Shown here in pieces: positions 14,654 to 32,419 of a stretch of 40,890 nt of DNA. The stretch spans positions 1-40,890 of the forward strand of contig NZ_JAEKIA010000016.1 in NCBI RefSeq assembly GCF_016405145.1, written 5' to 3'. The notes beneath the pieces were generated by a model that was not told where the DNA came from, made no database searches, and saw nothing but the letters and a program-made list of their open reading frames with translations. The translations under genes were made by a program, and so were the position numbers. This stretch comes from Schaalia cardiffensis (GTDB lineage: Bacteria; Actinomycetota; Actinomycetes; Actinomycetales; Actinomycetaceae). The number at the start of each line of letters is the position of its first letter. Position 1 is the stretch's first letter.

Positions 14654-14752
14654 GGCTTTGATCCAGGTCCTGAATGCTAATGAGCCGGTGATGCCTTTGG
14701 CTCTGAGGGGAGCAAGACCTGAGGTTTTGAGCTGAAGAGGAGAGGATACCTG

Positions 14753-15064
14753 TTACCTTGTTGGTGGCTTCTGGTGGCAGGTATCGCGGGCTGGGCCACT
14801 TGCCGAGGGCATGGTGTTGTACCAGCGCACCACTTGGGCGGTTTGGACTTCAACTTCGTTCAACTGGGCCCAGGAGGCTCGTGTTACCGGTTCGCTCAGC
14901 CTTTGTACAAGGGAAGGTGTTGAGAGCCCAAGCTCCAGCGTTATCGCAAGAATTACCTGTGGAACCGAGGGAGGCAACTGCTTTCTCCTGCGCTCAAGCT
15001 GCACCGCAATGGATCGCTCGGTATTGCACACCCCGATCACAATGGTGAACGAGCCTTCGTGAGG
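14753..15064 (-). pseudogene. Decayed IS3-family transposase (orfB 3' part)
   Basis: Reading the minus strand across frames gives the end of an IS3-type integrase core: LVHHCDRGVQYRAIH (compare the usual HSDRGSQY), then SLGSTGNSCDNA (compare SVGDSYDNALAE), GNTSLLGPVE, and LNEVEVQTAQVVRWYNT (compare the WVDWFN region) before a PPEAT-like end. The pieces lie in different frames and are separated by stops, so the gene is dead. Sequence upstream of about 15064 on that strand no longer resembles a transposase. Confidence 0.75.
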
Positions 15065-16249
15065 GTCTGCCCCGTCTCGTCGACGCTCCCCAAGGGGGCT
15101 TATTTTCAACGCGTCTCAGACGAAGACAGGGGGGAAGACTGTCAGAACGGGGGGCTGCCAGCTCAAAATCCTCCTTTGACAACCACGTTGGTAAGCGAAA
15201 GCAACGTACACCCCAGAGGAGAGTGCGCACGTTGCTCATATCAGCCCGCCCACAATCGTCCCTCTGGGCAAATGCTGAAAAATTGATTGGTTGACCAGGC
15301 GCGTCGGACACGTGGTTCTCTAGTTGGGGACCGTGTCGTGCGAGGCGACCTCGTGTCGGCGACACCCCCTTAGTTCAATCTCCTGTCTGGCGCATGAGCC
15401 GACAAGGGGGTGCGTCGTGCAAGCGTGTCCCGCGTCTGATGTTGTGCTCCGATCTTGGGCCGGTTCAACACAATATGCCTCGTCTTGCGAAGTATCGAAA
15501 GCCTGGGGAGTTGTCCGCATATACGCGCTCAATCTCAAAGTTTTGAGGCAGTTCAATCACGCCTGTGGCGCGATTGACGGCGGGGCGCGTGAGACGAGCC
15601 CGCTTGGCAGATGGAGCAACTTGCATGCCAGCACGCGCCTCCACCCCATAGAATGGGCGCTGGCCCCGAAGAACAGGCTTGATTCACCGCTAATGAACCC
15701 ATCAATATCTTCTATCGGCCCCTGGCTCCGCCTGGGCAAAACTTCGCGCTTGCTTTGCGCAAGATCTCATTCGCTCCACACAAGCCCCGCGCGTTCTCCC
15801 GATTCGAACTCCACAGGTCCGCTGAGCATCAACACCCCTCGTCCTAGGTTGACCCCCTTTCGTCGATCTCGCTTCACACCCCCACACCCGCAATGCCCCC
15901 AGGAGGTGAACACCACACTCACCAGACGATCCGACGGATCGCACCTCTCGAATGCGCAGAATCGCGCCTAGCTTCCATCAACACCCCACACTCACACGCT
16001 CACGCACCCCCCAAGCGGATACTTCCTCTGGGGCATAACAGCGACTTCTCCCCAATCATCACTGCCTCAATCAAACCAGGAGCGCAATACCTCTGAGGCA
16101 GTGCCCTAGGCTTTCAAAACCTCACCAACGACATCACCCGCAGCCTCCTTGAAACAGGCGGGTTCAGACCTCACCTACACCCTTGACTGGGAAGAGTCGG
16201 ATAAGCCTTAGGCATGGTCAACATCCTTCGAAAAAACACGAAGTGCGCT
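15065..16249. other. Gene-free scar with no recognisable gene
   Basis: None of the open frames in this 1.2 kb has a ribosome binding site, coding-type composition or family resemblance. The plus strand from about 15830 to 16080 is unusually C-rich. A perfect 13-base palindrome, GTGTCGGCGACAC, lies at 15353-15365, and ACCCCCTT (15364-15371) is inverted as AAGGGGGT (15404-15411). I read the stretch as decayed mobile or foreign DNA. Confidence 0.6.
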
Positions 16250-16472
16250 CACATCAAGTGTCACCAAAACCTGCACCAGACCCCCGCCAAACAAGCAGCT
16301 TAGAACTTGACAGAGGAGATCGGGGTGTCCCCACACCAGATTCTGAAGGGCCCCATGTTGGGTGAACTGGTAGAATAACACGGGCTACACAGTGAGCTGG
16401 ACGACACAGCACACCCATCAAATGAGCACCACCCAGGAACAAAACCAGGACGATCCAACCACATCAAGTGTC
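16250..16472. repeat. 13-base direct repeat around the IS remnant
   Basis: CACATCAAGTGTC occurs at 16250-16262 and again at 16460-16472, on either side of the IS110-like 3' end. It could be a target duplication or a remnant repeat; 13 bases could also recur by chance. Confidence 0.5.
16272..16320 (+). mobile_element. 3'-end remnant of an IS110-like element (left flank of the island)
   Basis: CCGCCAAACAAGCAGC followed by a stop codon and AACTTGACAGAGGA-like sequence (16283-16320) matches 32097-32133, the end of the broken IS110-family transposase and its downstream end, with only a few differences. The encoded residues before the stop (TPAKQAA) correspond to KPAKQAA in the other copy. It has the same orientation as the copy at 31.2-32.1 kb. 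Confidence 0.65.
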
Positions 16473-16517
16473 CTAAGTGAGGGGGACAGTCTTCCTGCTT
16501 GTGGAATAAAGGGATCG

Positions 16518-17363
16518 TTACGCAGGCTCTTCGCTGTCTGGGACAATTGAGTTCTTTCGCGCATTCGAAATCGTCTTGATATTGATGCCTTGTGAGATCG
16601 ACTTGAGGTGTTTCTCTATCTCGGCAATATTCTTGCTGATTCGTGTGATCTGATCGGTTTTGAAGGGGCGTCGAATCTCTTCTGGCAGGCGGAGGTGAAA
16701 GACTTCCGAAAATGACCGATTGGCTGCCGGATCGGTGTATTCGATTGTGATCTCCCACTGATCCTGAATGGTTCCGTGGGAGGCTAACATTTGGCGAGCG
16801 TATCCTAGCATCCATTGGTGCTGAATGTTCGGTGCGAGCGTGTGGAAACGGATTTGCCCGTTGAAGTCAGCGTTAATCTTTTGTTGAGCCGGTTTCGCAT
16901 TCTGATTTTCGAAGAATCGATCATCGAGTTCGAAGGGTGGCGTCACGAACAGCCTGACATCATGAGCGGTGGAGGCTCCGATGTTCTTGATGATAATTCC
17001 GACATACGCCTCCGCGTCGCTATGAATCGAGCGGTATGTGATGAACTGGAGATCGAGATAGGCGATTACCTTAGGTCTCGTTGCCTCGATCATGCTCGAC
17101 TCGAGTAGCCGGTTCGACTCATCGACCTGCTTGAGTTGTTTCAATGTCAGAAGAAGGGCTCCGATCGCCGAGATGCCTAGAACCGCGGTCCATTCTTCAG
17201 GCGTCGGCATATTCGGGATTCGCCACCAGGTTCCGAAGAACTGCGCGCTTATCCACGTCGCGAAGAGGATGGCGAAAAGGACGAGGAGAGAAGACAGGAT
17301 GGTGTTGGTCAGTGGTGGGGTCCCTTTCGAATGAGTCTCCGTTTCAGGCGTGCTCTTTCTCAA
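16518..17363 (-). CDS. Two-helix membrane protein of unknown function, coupled to the C5 methyltransferase
   Basis: I place the start at the TTG at 17361-17363 because AAGGAG stands 6 bases upstream and the methyltransferase stop lies just before it; no in-frame ATG precedes the first membrane helix. The 281-residue product has two membrane segments (about 21-43 and 59-75), a short helical linker (LKQLKQVDESNRLLE) and a C-terminal domain of about 180 residues with beta-rich sequence (VGIIIKNIGASTAHDVRLF). It ends in a charged helix. GC content (about 50 percent) is clearly below the core genes. I recognise no family. Being second in the methyltransferase operon, it is a candidate membrane-anchored component or regulator of the island. 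Confidence 0.8.
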   Translation of the reverse strand: MRKSTPETETHSKGTPPLTNTILSSLLVLFAILFATWISAQFFGTWWRIPNMPTPEEWTAVLGISAIGALLLTLKQLKQVDESNRLLESSMIEATRPKVIAYLDLQFITYRSIHSDAEAYVGIIIKNIGASTAHDVRLFVTPPFELDDRFFENQNAKPAQQKINADFNGQIRFHTLAPNIQHQWMLGYARQMLASHGTIQDQWEITIEYTDPAANRSFSEVFHLRLPEEIRRPFKTDQITRISKNIAEIEKHLKSISQGINIKTISNARKNSIVPDSEEPA

Positions 17364-17376
17364 ACGAGTCTCCTTT

Positions 17377-18477
17377 TCACACAAGCTGTTGGGCGATTGC
17401 AACGGCGATCGCGGCTCCGAGCGCGATCGGTACGGCGTTGCCGATCTGGCGCGCGATGGCCGTTCGCGACCCGATGAACCTGTGGCTTTCGGGGAATCCT
17501 TGGAGAAGAGCGGCTTCGTAATGCGTGATCGCCCTGTCTTCCGCGGGATGGATGTAGCGGCCCTTCTCGGGCTTGAAGAATTCGGTTCGGATCGTGACGG
17601 ACGGACGGTCCCAATGCAGACGTCCCATGACGTCCATCGATCCGGTCTTGTGCTTGCGCCAGCAGGGCGCAAGCAGTTGATCGGGCAAGTCGGTACGGTT
17701 GCCGCCAAGCGGGATTGCCGCGAAGCGATCGAGTGACAATCGGGTGTAGGAACGGCTCCAGTGGAGATCTCGAGGGGCGAATGCGCCGTGGGTCGCGCGC
17801 CCATTCACCTCGATCGTGCGTTCTGCGAATGCTTGGTCTTTGTCGGGCCGACGCGGGACTCCGGCGAGGGCTTCGCGGACGGTTCTGTAATCGGGGAGGG
17901 TGTCATCGGTGAAGGGGGAATGAGTGCGCTCGGGAAATGCGGGCGGGTCGAGGTCTCGGTGGTGCCCGAGTATCACGGTCCGTTTGCGCGCTTGAGGGGA
18001 CCCGTAATCCGCGGAGTTCAGGATCCGATAGTCGAAGGAATAATCCCTCAGGAGCCCCGTGGGAGAAGTCTCATCGAGGAACTCTCGGTATTGGGGGGAT
18101 GTGGAGAACTGGGGAACGTTCTCCACGACGAAGTACTTGGGCCGTACACGGCTCAGGGTCTGCGCGTACTGCTCCCAGAGCGAGTTGCGCTCGTCGTTCG
18201 CATCTCGATTCCCCAACGTGCTGAACCCCTGACAAGGCGGGCCGCCGACGACGACATCAATGTCCTGCGGCGTGTCGCCGCGTTCCAACCAACTCTGGAC
18301 CGAACCGGCGAACACATCCGTCCCGGCGAAGGTCGCCGCATAGGAGGCTGCGGCGAAGGTGTCCATTTCCACTGCTGCGGCGCTTCGGAAGCGCGGAGAA
18401 GCCACATGGAAGCCCGCAGTCAGGCCTCCGGCCCCGGCGAACAGATCAAGGACGCGGATCGGGGAGTCAGCAGGCAT
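17377..18477 (-). CDS. DNA (cytosine-5)-methyltransferase
   Basis: The 366-residue product carries the C5-methyltransferase motifs in order: motif I DLFAGAGGLTAGF (11-23), motif IV GGPPCQGFS with the catalytic cysteine C82, motif VI ENV (119-121), motif VIII QARKR (162-166), a short target-recognition region, and motif X RQIGNAVP near the end. It methylates the C5 position of cytosine in duplex DNA using S-adenosylmethionine; the target cannot be read from sequence. It is transcribed away from the six-gene operon and leads the membrane protein by 13 bases. In a restriction setting it would protect the host site. The Vsr-type gene at the far end of the island is the usual companion of such enzymes. 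Confidence 0.95.
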   Translation of the reverse strand: MPADSPIRVLDLFAGAGGLTAGFHVASPRFRSAAAVEMDTFAAASYAATFAGTDVFAGSVQSWLERGDTPQDIDVVVGGPPCQGFSTLGNRDANDERNSLWEQYAQTLSRVRPKYFVVENVPQFSTSPQYREFLDETSPTGLLRDYSFDYRILNSADYGSPQARKRTVILGHHRDLDPPAFPERTHSPFTDDTLPDYRTVREALAGVPRRPDKDQAFAERTIEVNGRATHGAFAPRDLHWSRSYTRLSLDRFAAIPLGGNRTDLPDQLLAPCWRKHKTGSMDVMGRLHWDRPSVTIRTEFFKPEKGRYIHPAEDRAITHYEAALLQGFPESHRFIGSRTAIARQIGNAVPIALGAAIAVAIAQQLV

Positions 18478-18584
18478 GACCCCAGGATAGCCGGCCGATC
18501 TCGGCGGGCCCTTTGAATCCGCGGGAATGTCCTTCGAACGAACGGCTCGTCAGAGCGTCTGAAATGATGAGGAACCTTGTGATG

Positions 18585-18604
18585 TGAGATACTCCCCGGG
18601 GAGT
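18585..18604 (+). promoter_or_regulatory. Candidate extended -10 promoter overlapped by a perfect 14-base palindrome
   Basis: TGA followed by GATACT (18585-18593) fits an extended -10 element without a good -35 box. It is overlapped by the perfect palindrome ACTCCCCGGGGAGT (18591-18604), a likely operator. The site lies between the divergent methyltransferase and the DUF1156 operon, about 50 bases before the latter. No regulator gene is apparent in the island. Confidence 0.45.
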
Positions 18605-18653
18605 TTCGCGGCGCCACTGGCACAGCGGATGGACTTTTCTCAATGAGGATCTG

Positions 18654-21482
18654 ATGGTGAAGAAGAAGCTGATCGAGGTCGCCCTGCCGCTGGACGAGAT
18701 CAACGCGCAGTCTGGGCGCGAGAAGTCGATCCGCAAGGGCCATCCTTCGACACTCCACCTGTGGTGGGCTCGCCGTCCTCTTGCAACGGCCCGCGCAGTC
18801 TTATTCGCACAGCTCGTCGACGATCCCTCCGAACGATATGGGGAGTTCCTCTCCGATGCCAGAAGGGCCGGGGCGGTGGAGCCGGAAGAGTCTGCCCGGG
18901 AACGCGTGACGGAGGAGCGCCAGCGCCTCTTCGATCTCATCAGGCGCATGGTGAACTGGGACAACATCAACGATGGGGCCTTGATGAACGAAGTCCGCGC
19001 TGAAATCCGCCGATCCGCAGGCGATAACCCGCCCGCAATCCTCGATCCCTTCGCGGGCGGCGGCACCATTCCCCTGGAGGCGCAGAGACTCGGGATCGAA
19101 ACGCACGCTTCCGATCTCAACCCTGTGGCGGTCCTCATCAACAAGGCCCTCATCGAGATTCCCCCGACGTTTGCCGGGCGTCCTCCCGTCTTCCCCGGAG
19201 CGGACACGGGGATGGCGTCGTGGAGCGGCGCCCAGGGGCTTGCCGAGGACGTGCGCCGCTACGGCGAATGGATGCGTGACGAGGCGAAGAAGAGGATCGG
19301 CCATCTTTACCCGAAAGCGACCCTTGAGGACGGCACTGAGACGACGGCCATCGCGTGGATCTGGGCGCGGACGGTCGTATGCCCGAACCCCGCGTGCGGG
19401 ATCCGTGCTCCACTGGTGCGCTCCTGGTGGCTCGGCAAGAAGAAGGGCAAGGAGACCTACATCATTCCCAGCGTTGTGGATGGGCGAGTCGAGTATTCGA
19501 TAGGGCACGCTCTGCCCGGCCCTTCCAAGGACGAGGATGGGACAATCGCAGGAGGAAAAGGCAGGTGCATAAGATGTCAAACTTTGATTGACAACAAGTA
19601 TATTCGGGAATGTGCGACAAACGAAGGGCTGGGTAGAGTTCTTTTGTCTATTGTTGCAGAAAGGAAGGTGAGTCGGGTATATCTGCCGCCAAATGAAATC
19701 CATGTGGAAGTAGCCGGCGTTCCACGACCGAACGATGTGCCTTCGCAACTGATTCCGGATAACAATCATGATGTCGATCGTCTTCCGATGTATGGAATGC
19801 CGACTTGGGCTGACGCATTTACGAACCGGCAGCTTGTGGCGTTGACTGCTTTCTCAGATTTGGTCGGGGATGTTCGCGAGAAGGTGCTCGCCGACGCCCT
19901 CGCCACCGGGATGTCCGAAGATGGGCGTCTCGAGTCTGGTGGAGTCGGAGCGGAAGCCTATGCCGATGCCGTTGCGACTTACCTGGGACTCGTTGTTTCT
20001 CGGCTGGCTGATTATTCCTCATCGATCAATACCTGGGCGAGTAATCCGCAAATGGAGATCCTCCGTAACGTTTTTGCTCGGCAGGCTATTCCCATGGCGT
20101 GGGATTATGCCGAGGGCAATCCTTTTGCGAACTCGTCCGGAAGTCTTGCCATCATGGTGAGAGCTGTGGCCAACGCCGTCGAACGAATACCGGCTTCAGA
20201 GTTCGCCAAAGCGGAACAAGCAGACGCCGCTACGCGCTCCTACTCCGGAGTTGTGGTTTCAACGGATCCCCCGTACTACGACAACATCGGATACTCCGAC
20301 CTCTCGGACTTCTTCTACGTTTGGCTCAGGAGGACTCTGAAGGAGATCCATCCCGAACTCTTCTCCACGATGCTCGTCCCGAAGGCGGAGGAACTCGTGG
20401 CCAATCCATACCGTCACGGGGGCAGGAAAGGGGCCAAGGAGTTCTTCGAAGAAGGATTCCGAGAAGTGTTCGCCAAGGCCCGGAAGGATGCGAACACGGA
20501 TTATCCGATGACGGTGTACTACGCATTCAAGCAGTCCGAGCTGAAAAGAGAAGGCCGTTCTTCGACGGGCTGGTCGACGATCCTCGAGGGGATGATCCGG
20601 TCAGGCTGGACGATCACCGCAACCTGGCCCGTGCGCTCTGAGCGCGCCGGAAGGATGCTCGCCGTCGGCACGAATGCCCTCGCCTCCTCGATCGTCCTCG
20701 TGCTCCGCCCCCGTCCCGAGGACGCGACGATCATCGATCGTCGAAGACTGTTGCGTGAACTACACTCAACTCTTCCAGACGCCATCGAGACCCTCAGAAG
20801 CGGCGGCATCGCCCCCGTTGACCTGGCGCAGGCGGCGATCGGCCCCGGCATCGGAGTCTTCTCGAAGTACGCAGGAGTGATCAACACCGACGGAACGAGC
20901 ATGTCCGTTGCGGAGGCCCTCGTGCAGATCAACGCCCTCCTCGATGAAATCCTCTCGGACCAGGACGACGATCTCGATCCGGACACGCGCTGGTGTCTTG
21001 CCTGGTACGAGACCAGGGGCTTCGACGAGGGACCGTACGGCGATGCCGAAACCCTCGCAAACGCCCGCAACGCCTCGATCGAGGCCCTTAGGCTCGGCGG
21101 AGTGCTCAACGCCAGCGGCGGACGGGTCTCGCTGATCTCAGTCGACCAGATGCAGGACGGATACGATCCGACGACGGACGAGCGAATCTCCCAGTGGGAG
21201 GTCGTCATCAACCTCGCACACGCGCTCGAATCCCAGGGCATGGATAGCGCCGCAAAGATCCTCGCCGGAGCCCGCGGACGCGGCATCGACACCGACGTTC
21301 TGCGATCGCTCGCTTACAGGCTCTACTCGATCGCCGAGAGGAACAAACAGACCAAGGAGGGAACCGTCTTCAACGCCCTTGGCTCCTCCTGGCTCGAGAT
21401 CAGTGCGGCGGCAGCGGATGCACGCGCATCGTCATACGAGAACCAGAGCGGTTTCGACTTCGACTCCCTGCAGGAGGACTGA
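18654..21482 (+). CDS. DUF1156 adenine-specific DNA methylase with zinc ribbon (COG1743 type)
   Basis: The 942-residue product starts with the DUF1156 region (IEVALPLDEIN, then REKSIRKGHPSTLHLWWARRP; residues 7-42). The S-adenosylmethionine motif is DPFAGGGT (131-138) and the N6-adenine catalytic motif is DPPYYD (538-543). Between them are two CxxC-type pairs (C243/C248 and C305/C308) that can form a zinc ribbon. GAGGA precedes the ATG. It is first in the six-gene operon; DUF499 follows after 3 bases. Methylases of this family recur in defence islands next to DUF499 ATPases. The DNA for about residues 303-402 is only about 48 percent GC, well below its flanks, suggesting replacement of part of the domain between the motifs. 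Confidence 0.93.
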   Translation: MVKKKLIEVALPLDEINAQSGREKSIRKGHPSTLHLWWARRPLATARAVLFAQLVDDPSERYGEFLSDARRAGAVEPEESARERVTEERQRLFDLIRRMVNWDNINDGALMNEVRAEIRRSAGDNPPAILDPFAGGGTIPLEAQRLGIETHASDLNPVAVLINKALIEIPPTFAGRPPVFPGADTGMASWSGAQGLAEDVRRYGEWMRDEAKKRIGHLYPKATLEDGTETTAIAWIWARTVVCPNPACGIRAPLVRSWWLGKKKGKETYIIPSVVDGRVEYSIGHALPGPSKDEDGTIAGGKGRCIRCQTLIDNKYIRECATNEGLGRVLLSIVAERKVSRVYLPPNEIHVEVAGVPRPNDVPSQLIPDNNHDVDRLPMYGMPTWADAFTNRQLVALTAFSDLVGDVREKVLADALATGMSEDGRLESGGVGAEAYADAVATYLGLVVSRLADYSSSINTWASNPQMEILRNVFARQAIPMAWDYAEGNPFANSSGSLAIMVRAVANAVERIPASEFAKAEQADAATRSYSGVVVSTDPPYYDNIGYSDLSDFFYVWLRRTLKEIHPELFSTMLVPKAEELVANPYRHGGRKGAKEFFEEGFREVFAKARKDANTDYPMTVYYAFKQSELKREGRSSTGWSTILEGMIRSGWTITATWPVRSERAGRMLAVGTNALASSIVLVLRPRPEDATIIDRRRLLRELHSTLPDAIETLRSGGIAPVDLAQAAIGPGIGVFSKYAGVINTDGTSMSVAEALVQINALLDEILSDQDDDLDPDTRWCLAWYETRGFDEGPYGDAETLANARNASIEALRLGGVLNASGGRVSLISVDQMQDGYDPTTDERISQWEVVINLAHALESQGMDSAAKILAGARGRGIDTDVLRSLAYRLYSIAERNKQTKEGTVFNALGSSWLEISAAAADARASSYENQSGFDFDSLQED

Positions 21483-21485
21483 CTC

Positions 21486-24400
21486 ATGGCGTCCCCCTCC
21501 AACCGCCACAGCGTCGGCGAAGGCCTCGACCTCCTCGCCGAAAGCCTCGGGCCCTGGATCAGCAGAACCCTTAACGGTAGGATTCCCGCCGAGACCCCGT
21601 GGGAGGATCTTCTCGCAGCGAAGGACGGGATCACCGGCAAGACCTACGATCCGGGCGACCTTCACTGTCAACTGCGGATCGTCACCGAGCACATGGGCGA
21701 CCTCGGATTCCTCTTCAACGACTCCCTGTCCCGCGCGGAGCAGAATCTCGCGCAGGAGCTCCGCGATGTGAGGAACGCATGGGCCCACGGAGTGCAGTTC
21801 AGCTCCGACGACGCCTACCGCGCGCTCGACACCGTCGAGCGACTGCTCAAGGCGATCAACGCCCCCGAAGCGGCCGTGCGCGCGCGCAAGACCCGAGTGG
21901 ATATTCAGCGCAGAACCTATGACGCCGCGGCTCGACGCGACAGTCGCGAGGCCGCGGTCGCAATGCCCGGACTGGGGGAGGAGGGCCTGACACCCTGGAA
22001 GGACGTCGTCCGCCCCCACGCCGACATCCTCTCGGGGGATTTCGGACAGGCCGAGTACGCGGCCGACCTCTACCAGGTCGCACACGGCCAGGGCGGTGCC
22101 GAATACCGCGATCCCGTGCGATTCTTCGAGCGCACCTACCTGACGCAGGGCCTCAAGACGCTCCTGACCATCAGCGCCAACAGACTCTCCGGTGACGGCA
22201 ACGCCCAACCCATCGTCAACCTGCAGACCACCTTCGGCGGCGGCAAGACCCATTCGATGCTCGCCGCATGGCACCTCGCGGGCGGAACGCCGCTCCACGA
22301 CCTGCCACAGGACCTCCAAGACCTCCTGGGCGACAGAGAACTGCCTGCGACGATCCGACGGGTCGCCATCGTCGGCAACGAGATCTCCCCCGGACAACCG
22401 ATGAGGAAGGCCGACGGCACCGTCGTACGGACTCTCTGGGGGGAACTCGCCTGGCAGCTCGGCGGAGCCGTGGGCTACGCCTTCGTCGCAGAGGCGGACA
22501 GGACGGGGACGAACCCGGGAAGTGCCCTGCGCAGCCTCATCGCCGAGTATTCCCCGGCGCTGATCCTCATCGATGAATGGGTCGCCTACGCCAGAGGGCT
22601 CTTCAACAGGGAGGACGAGCATCTGCCGGGCGGAAGCTTCGACGACCAGTTCTCCTTCGCGCAGACCCTCGCAGAAGCAGTCAAGGCCGTTCCCGGAGCC
22701 CTACTGCTCGTCTCCATCCCCGCATCCGACATTCGGGCCGACGGCACCCCGACCAAAGCATTCGAACTCGAGATCGGCGGAACCGGCGGACGGGAGGCCC
22801 TCGCCCGACTCCAGCACATCGTCAGCCGCGTCGCCTACAACTGGAGCCCAGCGTCATCCGGAGAGAGCTTCGAGATCGTTCGCCGCAGGCTCTTCACCGA
22901 CCTCGACGCCGACGCCATCCGCAGACGCGAAGCGACGGTCAGAAGGTTCAGTGAGTACTACCGCGCACAGCCGGGAGAACTGCCCTCTGAAACGATCCAA
23001 GTCGACTACGAGCAGCGTCTGCGCGAGGCCTACCCCATTCATCCGGAACTCTTCGACAGGCTCTACAACGACTGGTCCTCGCTCGAACGCTTCCAAAGGA
23101 CCCGCGGCGTCCTGCGACTCATGAGCGCGGTCGTCCACTCCCTCGTGGAATCGTGCGACGATTCGCCGCTCATCATGCCCGGATCGATCCCCCTCGACGA
23201 CGCCGTGGTCCGGGACGAGATCTGCGGATACCTCGACGACTCCTGGCGATCCATCATCGAGAGCGACGTCGACGGACAGGCATCCACCCCGCTGCGTATA
23301 GACAAGGAACGGGCACTCTATGGGAGACGGGCGCTCACCAGGCGCATCGCGAGGGCATTGTTCCTTGGGTCGGCAGCAGCAACCGACGACGCTCACAAGG
23401 GCGTCGGAAGGGCGAGGCTCTTCCTCGGAGTCGCAATGCCGGGAGACACGCTCGGCAACTTCGGATCCGCACTGCAACTGCTCACCGACAATGCGACCTA
23501 CGTCTACAACGAAGCCGGGAGGAGCTGGTACGACAGGAGGGCGTCGATCAACCGACTCGTCGGCGATCGGGCGAGATCCTATTCCGACGCCGACGTCCGC
23601 AGAGCCGCAATCGAGATGATCGAACGCCTCGCAGGGCGCTCCCCCGAATTCGTGAAGAACCTCATCGCACCAAGCTCGACCGGTGACGTGCCCGACGAGC
23701 AGGAAGTCCGCCTGGTCATCCTCGGCCCTGAACTGACGGTTTCTGGGAAGAACAGATCCGTCTCCGGTCCCGGTCGCGACTTCACAGACGAAATGCTCCG
23801 CAAACGCTCCTCCGCGCCCCGCGTCCACGCGAATACGATCATCGCCGTGGCGCCCGACGCGTCGAAATGGGCCGATGCGGAGCATGCACTCCGCACCCAC
23901 ATGGCATGGTCGGAGATGTCCGGGCAGGGAGCCGTCCGTACTCACGATCTCACGCACAGCCAGGCGGAACAGGCGAAGGCGAAGGCCCTCGAGACGAGGG
24001 CCGCCGCCGAGCGCGCCGTCTCCGCGGCCTGGGTGTGGGCGCTCCATCCCGAGCAAGACGACGGAACCCGGCCGTTCACGGTCAGGGGCACCAGGATAGA
24101 CGGGGACGAATCGAGGATCGCGGTTCGCGCGGGCGCCAAGCTCGGCCGACAGGACCAGATCCTCACGCACTGCAGCGCGTCCTCCATCGCCCTCGACCTG
24201 CAAGGGACGAACCTGCGGGCCCGCTGGAACAGGGGATGGATCACAGTCTCAGAACTCTGGTCCCTCTACACGAGATATCCGTACATGAAACGTCTGCGAG
24301 ACGAACGCGTGCTGCGCAGCGCCGTCGCCTCGGTCATGGCCGACATAGGCTGGCATTCAGTCGGTTTCGCCCTCGCCTCCGGTTACGACGAGAGGACAGG

Positions 24401-24869
24401 AGACTTCGAGGATCTGCGGATACCGCTCGAGGACGACGAGCCCGAGATCATCAGCGCCACAGTCCTGGTCGCTCCGCCACTCGCCCAGGCACAGCGGAGA
24501 CGGGAGAAGGAGGAACATGAGAACGCCTCCGGAATCCCCCCGGCACTCCTCTCCCTCCTCCCGTCAGACACCGGGGACGACGACTCCGGCCTCGAGCCGC
24601 CGACTGAGAGGCCGGAAGCGCCCGTCAATGAGAACACCTACTACCGGGGCCGCATCGACCTCGACCCCGGGAAGGGTATTGAGACCCAGCTCATAACACT
24701 CGTCGAGGAGATCATCGAGCGCATCGTCCAAGCGGACGCCGACTCTCTCGAGATCGGTGTGAATATCGAGGCCAGGAAGTACGCGGGCTTCCCCGAAGCG
24801 ACGGTTCGCGCGGTCACGGAGAACTCCAGGACACTGGGACTGACTCCAGGACGCTTCACGGGGGACTGA
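21486..24869 (+). CDS. DUF499 ATPase with N-terminal Swt1-like HEPN domain (COG1483 type)
   Basis: The 1127-residue protein begins with about 130 residues resembling Swt1-type HEPN domains, ending in RNAWAHG (R96-H101), which fits the R-x4-H ribonuclease motif. The ATPase core has Walker A GGGKT (251-255) and a Walker B LIDEW (361-365), as in DUF499/COG1483 proteins. A long C-terminal region includes a winged-helix-like part and an acidic, proline-containing linker (about 1020-1060). AGGAGG lies 9 bases before the ATG. It is co-translated with the DUF1156 methylase, its usual partner. The likely role is an ATP-driven restriction or translocation component; an RNase activity for the HEPN part is inferred from the motif only. 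Confidence 0.92.
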   Translation: MASPSNRHSVGEGLDLLAESLGPWISRTLNGRIPAETPWEDLLAAKDGITGKTYDPGDLHCQLRIVTEHMGDLGFLFNDSLSRAEQNLAQELRDVRNAWAHGVQFSSDDAYRALDTVERLLKAINAPEAAVRARKTRVDIQRRTYDAAARRDSREAAVAMPGLGEEGLTPWKDVVRPHADILSGDFGQAEYAADLYQVAHGQGGAEYRDPVRFFERTYLTQGLKTLLTISANRLSGDGNAQPIVNLQTTFGGGKTHSMLAAWHLAGGTPLHDLPQDLQDLLGDRELPATIRRVAIVGNEISPGQPMRKADGTVVRTLWGELAWQLGGAVGYAFVAEADRTGTNPGSALRSLIAEYSPALILIDEWVAYARGLFNREDEHLPGGSFDDQFSFAQTLAEAVKAVPGALLLVSIPASDIRADGTPTKAFELEIGGTGGREALARLQHIVSRVAYNWSPASSGESFEIVRRRLFTDLDADAIRRREATVRRFSEYYRAQPGELPSETIQVDYEQRLREAYPIHPELFDRLYNDWSSLERFQRTRGVLRLMSAVVHSLVESCDDSPLIMPGSIPLDDAVVRDEICGYLDDSWRSIIESDVDGQASTPLRIDKERALYGRRALTRRIARALFLGSAAATDDAHKGVGRARLFLGVAMPGDTLGNFGSALQLLTDNATYVYNEAGRSWYDRRASINRLVGDRARSYSDADVRRAAIEMIERLAGRSPEFVKNLIAPSSTGDVPDEQEVRLVILGPELTVSGKNRSVSGPGRDFTDEMLRKRSSAPRVHANTIIAVAPDASKWADAEHALRTHMAWSEMSGQGAVRTHDLTHSQAEQAKAKALETRAAAERAVSAAWVWALHPEQDDGTRPFTVRGTRIDGDESRIAVRAGAKLGRQDQILTHCSASSIALDLQGTNLRARWNRGWITVSELWSLYTRYPYMKRLRDERVLRSAVASVMADIGWHSVGFALASGYDERTGDFEDLRIPLEDDEPEIISATVLVAPPLAQAQRRREKEEHENASGIPPALLSLLPSDTGDDDSGLEPPTERPEAPVNENTYYRGRIDLDPGKGIETQLITLVEEIIERIVQADADSLEIGVNIEARKYAGFPEATVRAVTENSRTLGLTPGRFTGD

Positions 24870-24872
24870 GAG

Positions 24873-26390
24873 ATGGAATCGATCGCAGCCGTCTCATCGA
24901 GGACGGCACCGCCGGACCCGTCGATCACCAGGGCTGTCGGCACCCACCACGAATTGCGCACGGCACTCGGCGACATCGTGGACAACGCCATCGACGCCGG
25001 CGCGGAGAACATCCTCATCCGATTCCTCACGGAGGACGACCGGATCGAAGGCATCTACATCATCGACGACGGAACCGGAATGGACGAGAAGACCATTGAT
25101 GCGGCGATGATCTTCGCGAGGAAGCGCGACTACGGGGAATCAGCACTCGGGTACTTCGGTCTCGGCCTCAAGGCCGCATCGCTCAGCCAGGCTACGATCC
25201 TCGAAATCTACTCGCACTCCCTCGGGTCGGTTCCCGTCGGACGGCGGATCTCCAGGGACGAGCCCACGAGGATAGAGATACTCGACCCTGCGCAGGCCGA
25301 GGCGGAGATGAAACGGCGCAGGGCGATGATTCCCCGAACCGAGTCATCGCACGGAACGATCGTCTATTGGCGCGCGCCGCGCATGACTCTTAACGCGACG
25401 AGCACAGCGGAGCTCCGGACTTGGCTGTCCGAGAAGATCGAAGAACTCAGAGCGTACCTCGGCTTGACTTTCCACAGGATCCTGGAATCTGGCGGCATCC
25501 GCCTGGGCATCGATGAATTCGAACTCGAACGGGACGAGCCCGGCGCCCCCAGAAACGTTGATCCGATTGATCCCCTCTCCCTGGCTGCGCTGGCCTGTCG
25601 GCCAGCGCAGCTTTACGGGGATTGCGCCGGAGCGAACTTCACCGCAACAGCGGTCCTCGTGGCCGACGCCATACGCAATGCGCGCGGATTCATCGCCGCA
25701 GCGAGGGTTTCCCCTGTGACCGACGGTCAGGGTTTCTACGTCTACCGGAATGACCGCCTCCTGCAGATCGGCGGCTGGAACTCAATGGCCGACGAGAACG
25801 GCGCGGCGGATTACTCCCGACTCAGAGTCGCGATCGACATCGACAGCCGACTGCTGGACCATGTCGAGATCAACCCCGAGAAGAGCGGAACGGTCTTCGA
25901 CGCCGACCTCATCAGTTCGCTGCGCAGTGCGAGGGTTTCGGACGGGCGAGCCCTCGGCGACCTCCTCGCCGAAGCCGCAGAACTGGCGAGGACATCGAAG
26001 ACTCGCGAAAGGCGCCCGATCGAGATGGTCGAAGTGGGGACGGGTATCGGAAGGGCGGTCTACGACGCGATCGCGGACGCCGTGGACTTCACATCCGATG
26101 AACCGGTCGGGATCCGCTGGAAGCGCCTGCGGGAGGGGAAACTCGTCGAGGTGAGGAGGGAAACGGGCGTGATCTACCTCAACGACAGGTACAGGACGAT
26201 CCTCTCCGACTCCACTGACCCGAACGACGCCCCTTTGCTCAAGACACTGATTTACCTGCTCTACGGCGGTTTTTTCGAGGGCTCCTATCTCGGGCCGCGC
26301 GAGAAGCTCAAGATCGAGGCCTGGAACTCGATCATCGATGCAGCGCTCGAAGACGAGATCCGCCGCAGGAAGGAGCGAGACGGTGCCTGA
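24873..26390 (+). CDS. MutL/MORC-like GHKL (HATPase) protein
   Basis: The 505-residue product has a GHKL ATP-binding domain at its N-terminus: N-box ALGDIVDNAIDAG (31-43), G1 box DDGTGM (65-70) and ATP-lid G2 box GYFGLGLKAAS (93-103). A second domain of the S5 type probably follows (about 200-340, including FYVYRNDRLLQIGGW, reminiscent of MORC/MutL-type proteins). The C-terminal ~130 residues are unassigned. It starts 3 bases after the DUF499 stop and overlaps the next gene by 8 bases. Such ATPases are known companions of Z1 and Vsr-type proteins in restriction-like systems, where ATP-driven dimer clamping is assumed to control DNA loading. That role is inferred. Confidence 0.9.
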   Translation: MESIAAVSSRTAPPDPSITRAVGTHHELRTALGDIVDNAIDAGAENILIRFLTEDDRIEGIYIIDDGTGMDEKTIDAAMIFARKRDYGESALGYFGLGLKAASLSQATILEIYSHSLGSVPVGRRISRDEPTRIEILDPAQAEAEMKRRRAMIPRTESSHGTIVYWRAPRMTLNATSTAELRTWLSEKIEELRAYLGLTFHRILESGGIRLGIDEFELERDEPGAPRNVDPIDPLSLAALACRPAQLYGDCAGANFTATAVLVADAIRNARGFIAAARVSPVTDGQGFYVYRNDRLLQIGGWNSMADENGAADYSRLRVAIDIDSRLLDHVEINPEKSGTVFDADLISSLRSARVSDGRALGDLLAEAAELARTSKTRERRPIEMVEVGTGIGRAVYDAIADAVDFTSDEPVGIRWKRLREGKLVEVRRETGVIYLNDRYRTILSDSTDPNDAPLLKTLIYLLYGGFFEGSYLGPREKLKIEAWNSIIDAALEDEIRRRKERDGA

Positions 26391-27363
26391 AGATCCTCAT
26401 GAGGCATTGACGCCGCAGACCCTCGCCGTCTACATGAGCTCCGGCAGAGCGGTTCAGATTCGCATCGGGACCGATCCCGTATGCATCCTCGGCATCGACC
26501 CCGTACACGACGAGCTCACCCTCCGAACCCCCGCGACCGACGAGGACTTCGACCTGTCCGGTTACCGAATGATCAGAGGAAAGATCATTGAGGAGATCGG
26601 CGAGGGCGCCATGTGGTTCAGACTCGCCATCGATGCCACCGGTCACGAGTACGAGGCGTACTCGTTGCTCCGATCGGTCTCCGAACATCTCCAGCAGGGT
26701 GAGCGCCTCGAGCGCGCCCTCGTCGTCTCCCTCGACGGATACAGGGATCTCTTCTCAAGAATCCCGCGCCTCAGCGCCGATCAGGAGACAGGACTGTTCG
26801 GCGAATTGCTCGCCCTTGCGGACGAGATCGGCGCTGAGGCCTCCGTCAAGGCGTGGCTCGGCCCCCGCGGGGAGGAGCACGATTTCGTCCTGCCCGACGT
26901 GGACGTCGAGGTGAAGACGACGACATCCGAGAAGAGAACCCACATCATCCACGGAGTCGATCAGCTTACCCGAACCCCGGGCAGGCCACTGCAGATGCTG
27001 TCGATCCAGCTGACACGAGCCGGAGCCTCGAATCGGGGGTTGACGCTCACCGAGCTCGTCGGCGCGGTCAGGCGGGGGCTTCGCCTGATGAGAACGGAAC
27101 TCGATGAAAGGCTTGAACTAATGGGTTGGAGGGACCCCGACGCCGAGGAGCTCTTCACGTCGCGCTTCCTGCAGCGGACTGCGCCGCGCTTCTACGACGT
27201 TGACGACTCCTTCCCCGCCATCACATCAGACGGGCTTTCCAGAATCCTCGAACGCCCCGAACTGGTCCGGGGCGTGGACTACAGGATCGACGTCTCCGCG
27301 ATAGAGGGGACGGACGCCCCGGCATGGAGTATGACGATGCGCGACGAGCAGGAGGAACGATGA
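26383..27363 (+). CDS. DUF4420-type PD-(D/E)XK nuclease-like protein
   Basis: I chose the GTG at 26383 because AGGAAGGAG precedes it by 7 bases; an ATG at 26338 has no such site and would overlap the previous gene by 53 bases. The 326-residue product shows a PD-(D/E)XK pattern: helix GLFGELLAL with E141, D167 in EEHDFVLP, and E176-V-K178 in DVDVEVKTT. It fits the PD-(D/E)XK motif proteins (DUF4420) found between MutL-like and Z1 genes. All key residues are present, so it may be an active nuclease. The Z1 gene starts inside its stop (ATGA). Confidence 0.88.
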   Translation: MPEDPHEALTPQTLAVYMSSGRAVQIRIGTDPVCILGIDPVHDELTLRTPATDEDFDLSGYRMIRGKIIEEIGEGAMWFRLAIDATGHEYEAYSLLRSVSEHLQQGERLERALVVSLDGYRDLFSRIPRLSADQETGLFGELLALADEIGAEASVKAWLGPRGEEHDFVLPDVDVEVKTTTSEKRTHIIHGVDQLTRTPGRPLQMLSIQLTRAGASNRGLTLTELVGAVRRGLRLMRTELDERLELMGWRDPDAEELFTSRFLQRTAPRFYDVDDSFPAITSDGLSRILERPELVRGVDYRIDVSAIEGTDAPAWSMTMRDEQEER

Positions 27364-30356
27364 GTCAGGACGATTACGACAAGGCATTCGAACGCGCCAT
27401 GCGCTCGATGACGGGAGAGCCGGATGATCTCCAACGGCTCATCAACACGATGCTCTGGAAGAGCAGCAAGACGATCAACACCGACGAACTCGCCGAGCTG
27501 ATCCTCGACGCGGACTCGAACTCTCCTGCCAAGACCGCGTTCATCCTCGCCCTCTACCGGTGGGACGACTCGGAAGACACGACGTGGACGGATGGAACAG
27601 CCCCAGCGACCCGGGAGCGCCGTTCGCGTATCCTCACCCTCCTCGGAATCCCCAGAGAGGACCACAATGCCATCAACGAAGCATTCCCCGTCCGAGCTGA
27701 GGAGAACGCGTACATCCTCGATCCCGAGTGGGCGCCGTGGTACGACGAGGCACGCAGAAGCGAGCACCACTTCTATTGGGACGCCTACAAGAACGTCCTG
27801 AGTAAGAAACTGCCCCCCGCATCCGTCGCGGCGATCGATGTCTCGACGACGCAGATCGTTGGAAGGCTCGCCGACCCGACTTCCGAGACGCCCTACCAAT
27901 CGCGCGGACTCGTCGTGGGCCACGTGCAGAGTGGGAAGACCGCCAACTTCACCGGTGTCATCGCCAAGGCGATCGATGCTGGGTACCGCCTCATCATCGT
28001 GCTCACTGGGACCATCGAACTACTGAGGGCCCAGACCCAGAGGCGCCTCGATATGGAACTCATCGGGAGGGAGAACATCATCGGCGGCATGGATCCGGCG
28101 AATCCAGACCACATGATCGACATCGACTACGCCTCCAACGATGACGCCGATTGGATTGCCGGCAGATTCGTCAGTCACGGAGCGAGATTCACAGACGCAG
28201 GCGTCCCCGAGATCCGCCGGCTCACGCGCGCCAAGGACGATTACAAGTACCTCAAGGCCGGGCTCGACGCACTCGACTTCCGCAAGGGCCACGAACTCAG
28301 GCGCCCCGAGAAACCCATGTGGACGCCCGAAAACCTCCACGAGACCGATGTACGGATCGCGGTCGTCAAGAAGAATACACGGGTGCTCGAGAAGCTCGTA
28401 AGGGATCTCGGACGGATCCACGCGAGCCTTGGCGAGATCCCGACCCTCATCATCGACGACGAGGCCGATCAAGCCTCGGTGAACACCCTCAACCCCAAGA
28501 AGGCGACCGATGTTCAAGAGAGGACCGCGATCAACAAGAAGATCTCCGAGCTGCTGGGAGAACTCAAGCGCGCCCAATACATCGGCTACACCGCCACGCC
28601 TTTCGCGAACGTTTTCGTCTCACCGGAGGACTCGGAGGACATCTTCCCACGAGACTTCATAGTCAGCCTCGCCGCGCCCGAGGAGTACAGGGGAGGAGCC
28701 GCGTATCACGACTTCGAGGAACTCACAGACGAAGAGAAGAAAGACCCGTCGATCTCGAACGAACGGGCGTTCGTCAGGGACCTGATGGCTGTGACGCCCG
28801 AGGACGCGGAAGAAGAACTCGGACGGGCGATCGACTCCTTCGTCCTCACAGGAGCGATCAAGCTCTGGCGCGCCGAAGAGCAGCCGGGGCTCGTGAAGCG
28901 CTTCCGCCACCACACGATGCTCGTCCACGAGTCGGTCAGAACGCAGGACCACGCAGATCTTGCCGCAACTATCACGAGGATCTGGAAGGAGCACGGATAC
29001 GGCTCGCCCGCTGCCAACGCCCGGCTTCGTAGACTCTTCGACGAGGACTTCAAGATCGTCTCCTCCGCAAGGGATTGGGAGCAGGGACTGCTCCTTCTGC
29101 CCGACTCCTTCGACGAGGTCGCACCGTTCGTCGGCGAAGTACTCGACAGAGTCACTCCGGAGGGTGTCGCCGATCCGGTGGTCGTCGTGAACGGCGACAA
29201 GGAACAACAGTATCGGCAGGTCGATTTCGAGAGCGACGACGTTTGGAGGATCCTCGTCGGAGGAACCAAACTCAGCCGAGGATTCACCCTCGAAGGCCTC
29301 ACCATCACCTATTTCAAGAGACGTGCCCTGCAGGCCGACAGCCTCATGCAGATGGGCCGCTGGTTCGGATACCGGAAGGGTTACAGCGACCTCGTACGCC
29401 TCTACATGGCACGCAACATCCAGAAGTCCGGCAAAAGCTACGACCTGTACGAGGCGTTTGGGGCGATCATGAAAGACGAGGAGGACTTCAGAGCGCAGCT
29501 CAAAATCTTCTCCCAACTCGACGAGAGAGGCATTCCGAAGGTCAAACCCATCCAAGTGCCACCGCTGGTGTTTCAACAGCTGCCGTGGCTCAAACCGACT
29601 AGTACGACGAAGATGTACAACGCCGAGCTGAGCATGCAGGGCATCGGTGGCAGGCTTCAGGACTTTCCCCGCCAACCCGAGAGGGGCGACGGATCGATCA
29701 ACAGGAAGCACTTCGAACTGGTTAAAGGATGGTTCGACGATGGGCTGTTCGGGGACACCGAAGAGTTCGAGTACTACGATGCGCAACGCCGTAAGGAGGC
29801 CTCGTTCAAGGGGCGCATCGCGATCGTCCCGGCAGAGGGGATGCTCGAAGTCCTCGAAGGGTTCGACTGGACCCAGAACTATGACTTCGAGCCCAACGCC
29901 ACGATGATCCGCCAGGCGATGGCGGAGGAGAAACTGGAGGACTGGGCCGTTCTGCTGCCCGAGCTCACGAAGACGACCTTCAAGGTCGTCGATGGACTCA
30001 CAATCCCGGTGCTCAAGAGAACGAGGAGAAGCGGCAGCCGCGGTGGCTTCTCGGGCTCGTCATTCCGACAGCGCGACGCGATCGAGATGATCGCTGGCAA
30101 CCCGAGAGTGAACAGCATCGGGTGTGCGAGTCACTACCACCGATTGACACGAGGAGCACTTCTGCTGACCTTCGCGGCCGATCCCGTTGAGGGGCATGAG
30201 AGAGACCCGAAACTCTTGCCGGAGGTTGTGTCGGCAGAGGACATCGCAACGATCTTCTCGTATGCGATCTCCTACCTCGCTGCGCCCAAGCCTCGCATCG
30301 CATTCAGGGCCAAGAAGAAGAACCACGGATCGGAGGCCATCGTCGATGCCGATTGA
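27360..30356 (+). CDS. Z1-domain superfamily 2 helicase-like ATPase
   Basis: The 998-residue product has the Z1 architecture. Motif I is VGHVQSGKT (186-194), motif II IIDDEAD (364-370) and motif III GYTATP (409-414). The Z1 region then runs through LVGGTKLSRGFTLEGLT and QMGRWFGYRKGY, which holds the motif VI arginines. The N-terminal ~170 residues are a helical accessory domain. GGAGGA lies just before the ATG, which overlaps the previous stop; the last 11 bases overlap the Vsr gene. Z1 proteins accompany MORC/MutL-like ATPases in restriction-type systems and are thought to translocate on or remodel DNA. No methylase or nuclease domain is fused to it here. Confidence 0.93.
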   Translation: MSQDDYDKAFERAMRSMTGEPDDLQRLINTMLWKSSKTINTDELAELILDADSNSPAKTAFILALYRWDDSEDTTWTDGTAPATRERRSRILTLLGIPREDHNAINEAFPVRAEENAYILDPEWAPWYDEARRSEHHFYWDAYKNVLSKKLPPASVAAIDVSTTQIVGRLADPTSETPYQSRGLVVGHVQSGKTANFTGVIAKAIDAGYRLIIVLTGTIELLRAQTQRRLDMELIGRENIIGGMDPANPDHMIDIDYASNDDADWIAGRFVSHGARFTDAGVPEIRRLTRAKDDYKYLKAGLDALDFRKGHELRRPEKPMWTPENLHETDVRIAVVKKNTRVLEKLVRDLGRIHASLGEIPTLIIDDEADQASVNTLNPKKATDVQERTAINKKISELLGELKRAQYIGYTATPFANVFVSPEDSEDIFPRDFIVSLAAPEEYRGGAAYHDFEELTDEEKKDPSISNERAFVRDLMAVTPEDAEEELGRAIDSFVLTGAIKLWRAEEQPGLVKRFRHHTMLVHESVRTQDHADLAATITRIWKEHGYGSPAANARLRRLFDEDFKIVSSARDWEQGLLLLPDSFDEVAPFVGEVLDRVTPEGVADPVVVVNGDKEQQYRQVDFESDDVWRILVGGTKLSRGFTLEGLTITYFKRRALQADSLMQMGRWFGYRKGYSDLVRLYMARNIQKSGKSYDLYEAFGAIMKDEEDFRAQLKIFSQLDERGIPKVKPIQVPPLVFQQLPWLKPTSTTKMYNAELSMQGIGGRLQDFPRQPERGDGSINRKHFELVKGWFDDGLFGDTEEFEYYDAQRRKEASFKGRIAIVPAEGMLEVLEGFDWTQNYDFEPNATMIRQAMAEEKLEDWAVLLPELTKTTFKVVDGLTIPVLKRTRRSGSRGGFSGSSFRQRDAIEMIAGNPRVNSIGCASHYHRLTRGALLLTFAADPVEGHERDPKLLPEVVSAEDIATIFSYAISYLAAPKPRIAFRAKKKNHGSEAIVDAD

Positions 30357-30777
30357 TCCATCGGCGGCCGGAAAGTCCTGGGCCTCGACACCCGGCGTCA
30401 TGAAATCGATGAAGTCGAACAGACGACGCGACACAGGCCCAGAACTCGACATCAGGAGACGGCTCCACGCCAGGGGGTACCGGTACAGGGTCGACTACTC
30501 GGGGTGGAGCAACAAACGGCGGCGCGCGGACATCGTCTTCACCCGACGCAGGATCGCTGTGTTCATCGACGGATGCTTCTGGCACTCCTGTCCGCAGCAC
30601 GGCACAATCCCCATGTCCAATGAAGACTACTGGCGTCCGAAACTCGAATGGAACGCTCGAAGAGACCTCGAGACGAACCGGCTGTTAGAAGCCGAGGGGT
30701 GGCGGGTGCTCCGCATCTGGGAACACATTCCCATCGAGGAGGCTGTTGAGGCCATCATCCGGGAACTCCACCGCTGA
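30346..30777 (+). CDS. vsr: Very-short-patch repair (Vsr) type endonuclease
   Basis: The 143-residue product has the Vsr fold signature: KSNRRRDTGPELDIRRRLHARG near the N-terminus (E33), RRADIVF with catalytic aspartate D62, FIDGCFWHSCPQHG (D75 at the position of E. coli H64, H80 at that of H69), then WRPKLEWNARRD and WRVLRIWEH. Classical Vsr nicks T:G mismatches left by deamination of 5-methylcytosine. The ATG at 30346 has GGAGG 9 bases upstream and overlaps the Z1 gene by 11 bases. It is the last gene of the operon. It could repair damage caused by the island's own C5 methyltransferase or act as its restriction nuclease; sequence alone does not decide. Confidence 0.93.
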   Translation: MPIDPSAAGKSWASTPGVMKSMKSNRRRDTGPELDIRRRLHARGYRYRVDYSGWSNKRRRADIVFTRRRIAVFIDGCFWHSCPQHGTIPMSNEDYWRPKLEWNARRDLETNRLLEAEGWRVLRIWEHIPIEEAVEAIIRELHR

Positions 30778-31171
30778 TCGGCGCATCTGATGAGTGCCGG
30801 GCCCAGTGCCATGCGATGACCGGGATGAGGTCACAACGCCAGATGAATTATGAGCGCTGTGACGGCGGACGGCCAGCGGTCTGCCGGAGCAACTGCAGCG
30901 GGCAATGGATCATTTGCGTTATTGAGGAGCCCTGAGTTCGGTCGTTTTACGGGGTGATAGGTTTGTTGGCCGGACGGTCCTGGCATGATTGCTTGCCTCT
31001 GTCATTTTATGATCCGGGGGTGTTGTCACCAGGATTGGACGGACACACTCGTGATTGCTGATCAGGAGCGTGGCACTAGATGCCTGTCGTAACGTTGGTG
31101 TAAGATGGATGCGTTTGCCGTAAAACCGACGGAAGCGCACTGGCTGGTTCTATCTCGAAGGCGAGGCCCTC
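30778..31171. other. Intergenic stretch between the vsr gene and the IS110-like pseudogene
   Basis: I see no gene here. The right part, roughly the last 100-150 bases, is probably the 5' non-coding end of the IS110-like element and includes a TAAGAT box near 31101. No clear terminator follows the six-gene operon. Confidence 0.5.
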
Positions 31172-32133
31172 ATGAACCCTGACGATATAAACATTTGGCT
31201 TGGCATCGACGTGGGAAAGACCAATCATCGGGCAACAGCAACTGACGCTTCCGGTAAGCAAGTTTACTCGCATTCGCTGCCTAATAACGAGAGTTAACTA
31301 CGGCAAATCTATTCAGATCTTGCCACCCAGGGGCGGGTTCTGGTCGTGGGCGACCAGCCAACAACGATCGGCGCGCTGACCGTCGCGCTTGCCCAGGCAA
31401 TGGGTGTTGCGGTTGCTCATCCGTCGGGATTAGCGATGCGGCGAATCGCTGACTTGTATCCGGACAACGCAAGGACGGACCAGTGCGATGCGTTCATCAT
31501 CTCCCAGGCAGCTCGCACCATGTCACACGCGCTCAGGACTCTTCGAGCACGGGACTGGCAAGCCTTGAGTGAGGACATTCTCAACGCGCTCGCAACGCAA
31601 ACCGTGACCGTGACGAACGCGGCAGCAAACGTCATCCCACACTTAGCTGCAACCTTGAACGAGCTCTACCGTCAACGCGCCGACATTGAAGAACAAATCG
31701 AGGAATTGGCTAGCCAGCACCCTCTTTAGCAGGCCCTAACCTCCATGCCTGGAGTTGGGGTTAGGGCCGTCGCTGTGATCATAGCCGAGCTCGCCGGTAA
31801 AGACTTTGCTTCTGCCTCCCATCTCGCCTCTTATGCCGGACGCACGCCCACAACTCGCCAGTCCGGAACCTCGATCAAGTCCGAAATCGTCTCTCACACA
31901 GGCGACAAACGCCTCAAAAGGACCCTATTCCTTTCCGCTTTCGCGTCCCTGCGCTGAGCCCCGCCCTCACGCCGCTACTACTGACAAGAAACGCTTCGCC
32001 GGAAAACGACATGACCAAGCCCTTGTCGCGCTAGCCCACAATCGTCGAACCGTCCTGTATGCCATGGTCCGCGACAACACACTCTACGAAACCAAACCCG
32101 CCAAACAAGCAGCCTAAAACTTGCCAGAGAATA
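31172..32133 (+). pseudogene. Broken IS110-family transposase and 3' end of the element
   Basis: The sequence starts with an ATG at 31172 and reads as an IS110-type DEDD transposase: WLGIDVGKTNH near the N-terminus, VGDQPTTIGALTVALA, the DARTDQCDA-like NARTDQCDAFIIS, and the C-terminal transposase-20 part SMPGVGVRAVAVIIAEL, then LASYAGRTPTTRQSG. It is interrupted by an in-frame TAA at 31295-31297, TAG at 31727-31729 and TGA at about 31955, and it changes frame between about 31957 and 31990 before ending (ETKPAKQAA, stop at 32117). It is therefore inactive. The 3' end beyond the stop matches 16283-16320. Confidence 0.88.
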
Positions 32134-32375
32134 TGTTTTGTCTAAGAGGCTGACGCCTGATAGCAGAATAATCTACTGGCAGTGCCTGCGGTCTCGTTGC
32201 TCTTTCGCGTAACGTCATGCATGACATCTGCTCGCCGAGATTGATGTGTAAGGGAGGGGTGTACAGAGGGGCCGGAGCGTTATTACGACACGATGTCTGC
32301 ATCTGATCCCGGCACCCGAGCTCGCAGCAGTGTCCACATTGCGCGCAGCGGCTGCATGTGATGTAGATCGCCCCC

Positions 32376-32381
32376 TACAGT
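32376..32381 (+). promoter_or_regulatory. Candidate -10 box of the leuA leader transcript
   Basis: TACAGT lies 7 bases before the leader-peptide ATG, so the message could be leaderless. The upstream -35 region (around 32352-32358) is poor. A perfect 12-base palindrome, GTCATGCATGAC, is further upstream at 32214-32225, with no known role. Confidence 0.45.
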
Positions 32382-32387
32382 GGGACC

Positions 32388-32419
32388 ATGCGACGAATGG
32401 AAACTCTCCTTCTTCTTCG

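Follow-up and report, generated by a model that had tools for sequence, protein, structure and literature searches.

Hma was described by the PADLOC authors as a three-gene operon with the helicase HmaA, and the part of that paper devoted to it calls HmaB a predicted 5-methylcytosine (m5C) methyltransferase (PMC8565338). In a 2026 survey, the pages treating Hma-like systems rename them DUF499-centred BREX-related (BR) systems, composed of an ATPase, an N6-methyltransferase and an SNF2 helicase; Hma corresponds there to Type-1 BR, and for BREX Type 3 and Type-3 BR systems the survey already reports an exchange in which PglZ takes the place of the nuclease (PMC12839542). GHKL (MORC/paraMORC) restriction operons with a third type of superfamily II (SFII) helicase were described by Iyer et al. 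2008, whose section on these operons names no DUF1156 or DUF499 partner (PMC2292703). The window analysed here, 40,890 nucleotides of Schaalia cardiffensis DNA (contig NZ_JAEKIA010000016.1), contains a predicted defence cluster in which the DNA-marking half of Hma is kept, while the usual cutting protein is replaced by a whole predicted DNA-cutting module related to another known system. This combination is inherited as one unit within a group of actinobacteria. The eight-gene island was confirmed as the initial annotation had described it, and the interpretation given there is supported in part (Table 1).

Table 1. Features of the window, with strand and supporting evidence
Feature	Position	Strand	Evidence
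Whole inserted island	14656..32405	.	between era and leuA
281-aa membrane-type protein	16518..17363	-	TTG start, AGGAG ahead of start
C5 cytosine DNA methyltransferase, divergent from operon	17377..18477	-	PF00145 194 bits
HmaB / DUF1156 DNA methyltransferase	18654..21482	+	PADLOC HmaB 1087 bits; PF06634
Hypervariable part of HmaB, residues about 281-540	19494..20273	+	identity drop
HmaC / DUF499 AAA+ ATPase	21486..24869	+	PADLOC HmaC 808 bits; PF18731, PF04465
MORC/MutL-like GHKL ATPase	24873..26390	+	PF13589 72 bits
DUF4420 nuclease, PD-(D/E)XK type	26383..27363	+	PF14390 122 bits
Gene with PF10593 match (Z1)	27360..30356	+	PF10593 172 bits
Stretch inside PF10593 gene	29541..30353	+	DNA identity drop
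Vsr-type DNA mismatch endonuclease	30346..30777	+	TIGR00632 121 bits over cut-off 97.85
Broken IS110-family transposase	31172..32117	+	PF01548

The first pair, proposed in the initial annotation to be a DUF1156 methylase and a DUF499 ATPase, was recovered as such by the PADLOC and Pfam profiles. HmaB and HmaC are adjacent and in the same order as in the descriptions of Hma and Type-1 BR, but HmaA, which lies upstream of HmaB in the classic Hma loci that we fetched, is missing. No SNF2 helicase or helicase-nuclease of the HmaA kind was detected among the island genes by Pfam and PADLOC profiles, and the best match in the whole genome was an unspecific one of 43 bits. BREX Type 3 and Type-3 BR systems share a related ATPase and methyltransferase with the island (PMC12839542, in the pages concerned); a BrxHII-type helicase was not found in this island, and Pfam gave no PglZ match among the eight island proteins.

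The absence of HmaA extends to all evaluable loci that carry both halves (composites). Of at least 585 HmaC relatives, the scan of named genomes kept the 80 best, so that the 14 composites among the 80 do not represent a frequency; the composite and other loci counted are related, and p-values on these counts overstate. HmaA was found in none of 12 evaluable composites (2 more were not evaluable). Among the other loci, 57 could be evaluated and 55 of these have it; 9 could not be evaluated. The two non-composite loci without a scored HmaA are L025, where the HmaB match is only partial, and L030, where the fetched stretch starts within an HmaA-like match. In the family set, HmaA was absent from all 7 complete composites and from L231, and present in 10 of 12 others; the remaining two are L240, without a clear HmaB, and L245, a contig end of about 10 kb.

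Unrelated systems accumulate in defence islands, and with HmaA missing the cluster could be a decayed Hma system that lost its helicase and came by chance to lie beside another restriction module. We consider this very improbable. The gene order is the same in 23 loci, which are spread over many families and in two cases are cut by contig ends. Furthermore, HmaB and HmaC are under purifying selection, with ratios of nonsynonymous to synonymous substitution rates (dN/dS) of 0.12–0.36, and their motifs are intact. The DPFAGGG and TDPPYYDN motifs of HmaB show no variation across 16 composites, and R96, H101, GGGKTHS and LIDEWV of HmaC are unchanged in 16/16. The N-terminus of HmaC forms a Swt1-like HEPN domain (residues 13–125) with an R-x4-H motif, a pattern present in 14/15 composites and 68/74 other loci.

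The PADLOC HmaB profile is labelled DNA-adenine methylase, and HmaB is probably an adenine-N6 methyltransferase. Across 7 loci of the Actinomyces group, mean identity per 40-residue window is 0.42–0.77 in its variable part versus 0.81–0.93 elsewhere in HmaB, and 0.64 over the last 22 residues. DNA identity falls sharply to about 60% in the variable part, which is probably target-recognising. A second drop lies inside the PF10593 gene: DNA identity there is 66–83% in the pairs L226/L228 and L228/L230, versus 84–99% for the operon beyond the HmaB variable part.

The downstream module comprises the GHKL, DUF4420, Z1 and Vsr set named in the initial annotation, each with its profile match. It shares with the operons of Iyer et al. 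2008, as their section presents them, the GHKL ATPase, a helicase with the DThhQXuRhFG motif and a restriction-endonuclease (RE)-fold protein with E-D-ExK residues; the cytosine methylase and Vsr, often present there, are both present here (PMC2292703). The GHKL ATPase matches a solved MORC2 structure (E 1.2e-10). In the DUF4420 protein, E156, D182, E191 and K193 (numbered from 26338) are fixed in 12 aligned composites. The VQSGKTA, IDDExD and YTATPFANVF motifs of the PF10593 protein are unchanged in 16/16 composites. The helicase motif has S for T in the window copy; the exact pattern D[ST]xxQx[GAS]RxFG occurs in 15/21 composites and is lacking in the other 6. A Vsr homologue above 60 bits was found in 7/14 composites and 0/66 other loci.

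Alternatively, the cluster could be an Mza system that has diverged and carries two additional genes, which is unlikely. The NCBIfam scores fall far under the curated equivalog cut-offs (MzaB 89 versus 850, MzaC 276 versus 1500, MzaD 67 versus 420 bits), and Pfam detected neither a sigma factor (MzaA) nor an AIPR protein (MzaE) among the eight island proteins. In two Microbacterium composites (L003:4391-7045 and L004:4456-7032, minus strand), a GHKL ATPase is fused to a sigma-70 factor and lies between the C5 methyltransferase and HmaB; Pfam identifies sigma regions 1.2, 2 and 4 in L003. This fusion looks like MzaA and MzaB in a single chain. L005 and L008 encode proteins that match sigma region 4 weakly.

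Other arrangements of the replacement module were observed. L090 and L156 carry other front ends on the GHKL triad. L157 and L158 retain the GHKL half and have lost the Hma half: HmaB is cut down to its DUF1156 N-terminus directly before the open GHKL gene (L157:9827-10204, L158:10045-10443), HmaC is gone, and the dN/dS of 1.32 for the remnant gives no indication of constraint.

The C5 methyltransferase that the initial annotation had placed in the island also matches TIGR00675 with 147 bits, above the cut-off. Homologues above 100 bits occur in 9/14 composite loci versus 0/66 others, with weaker matches of 53 and 55 bits in the non-composite L047 and L067; many GHKL triads without HmaB-HmaC are also accompanied by C5 methyltransferases. 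Of the eight island genes, the one for the 281-aa membrane-type protein, found in this genome only, is probably not part of the system.

DNA homology to the era-leuA flanks of five genus relatives (L188-L192, blastn) stops at about 14655 and restarts at about 32406. What lies between era and leuA varies within the genus (L188-L203): the interval measures only about 80 bases in L190 but about 1 kb in both L188 and L189, and several kb or more elsewhere. In L197 it contains a Type III restriction system that includes a DrmD-like helicase, and in L191 a mad3/mad8-like protein. The 3' end of the IS110-family transposase (32097-32134) is repeated at 16283-16320 with 87% identity; the two copies flank the defence genes in the same direction, 15.8 kb apart. 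Downstream of uppS, the protein encoded at 36632-37618 matches EspA/EspE and WXG100 weakly and is a possible type VII secretion substrate.

The wider question is how BREX-type methyltransferase/ATPase pairs signal their effectors to cut. Where nature has exchanged one effector for another that is unrelated, and has kept the new arrangement across many genera, comparing helicase-bearing and GHKL-bearing clades offers a way to locate the region of HmaB/HmaC that communicates with effectors. The exchange also connects MORC-like ATPases of prokaryotes with a defined sensor. A catalogue whose definitions demand HmaA, or the complete set of Mza parts, can be expected to overlook this system or to divide it.
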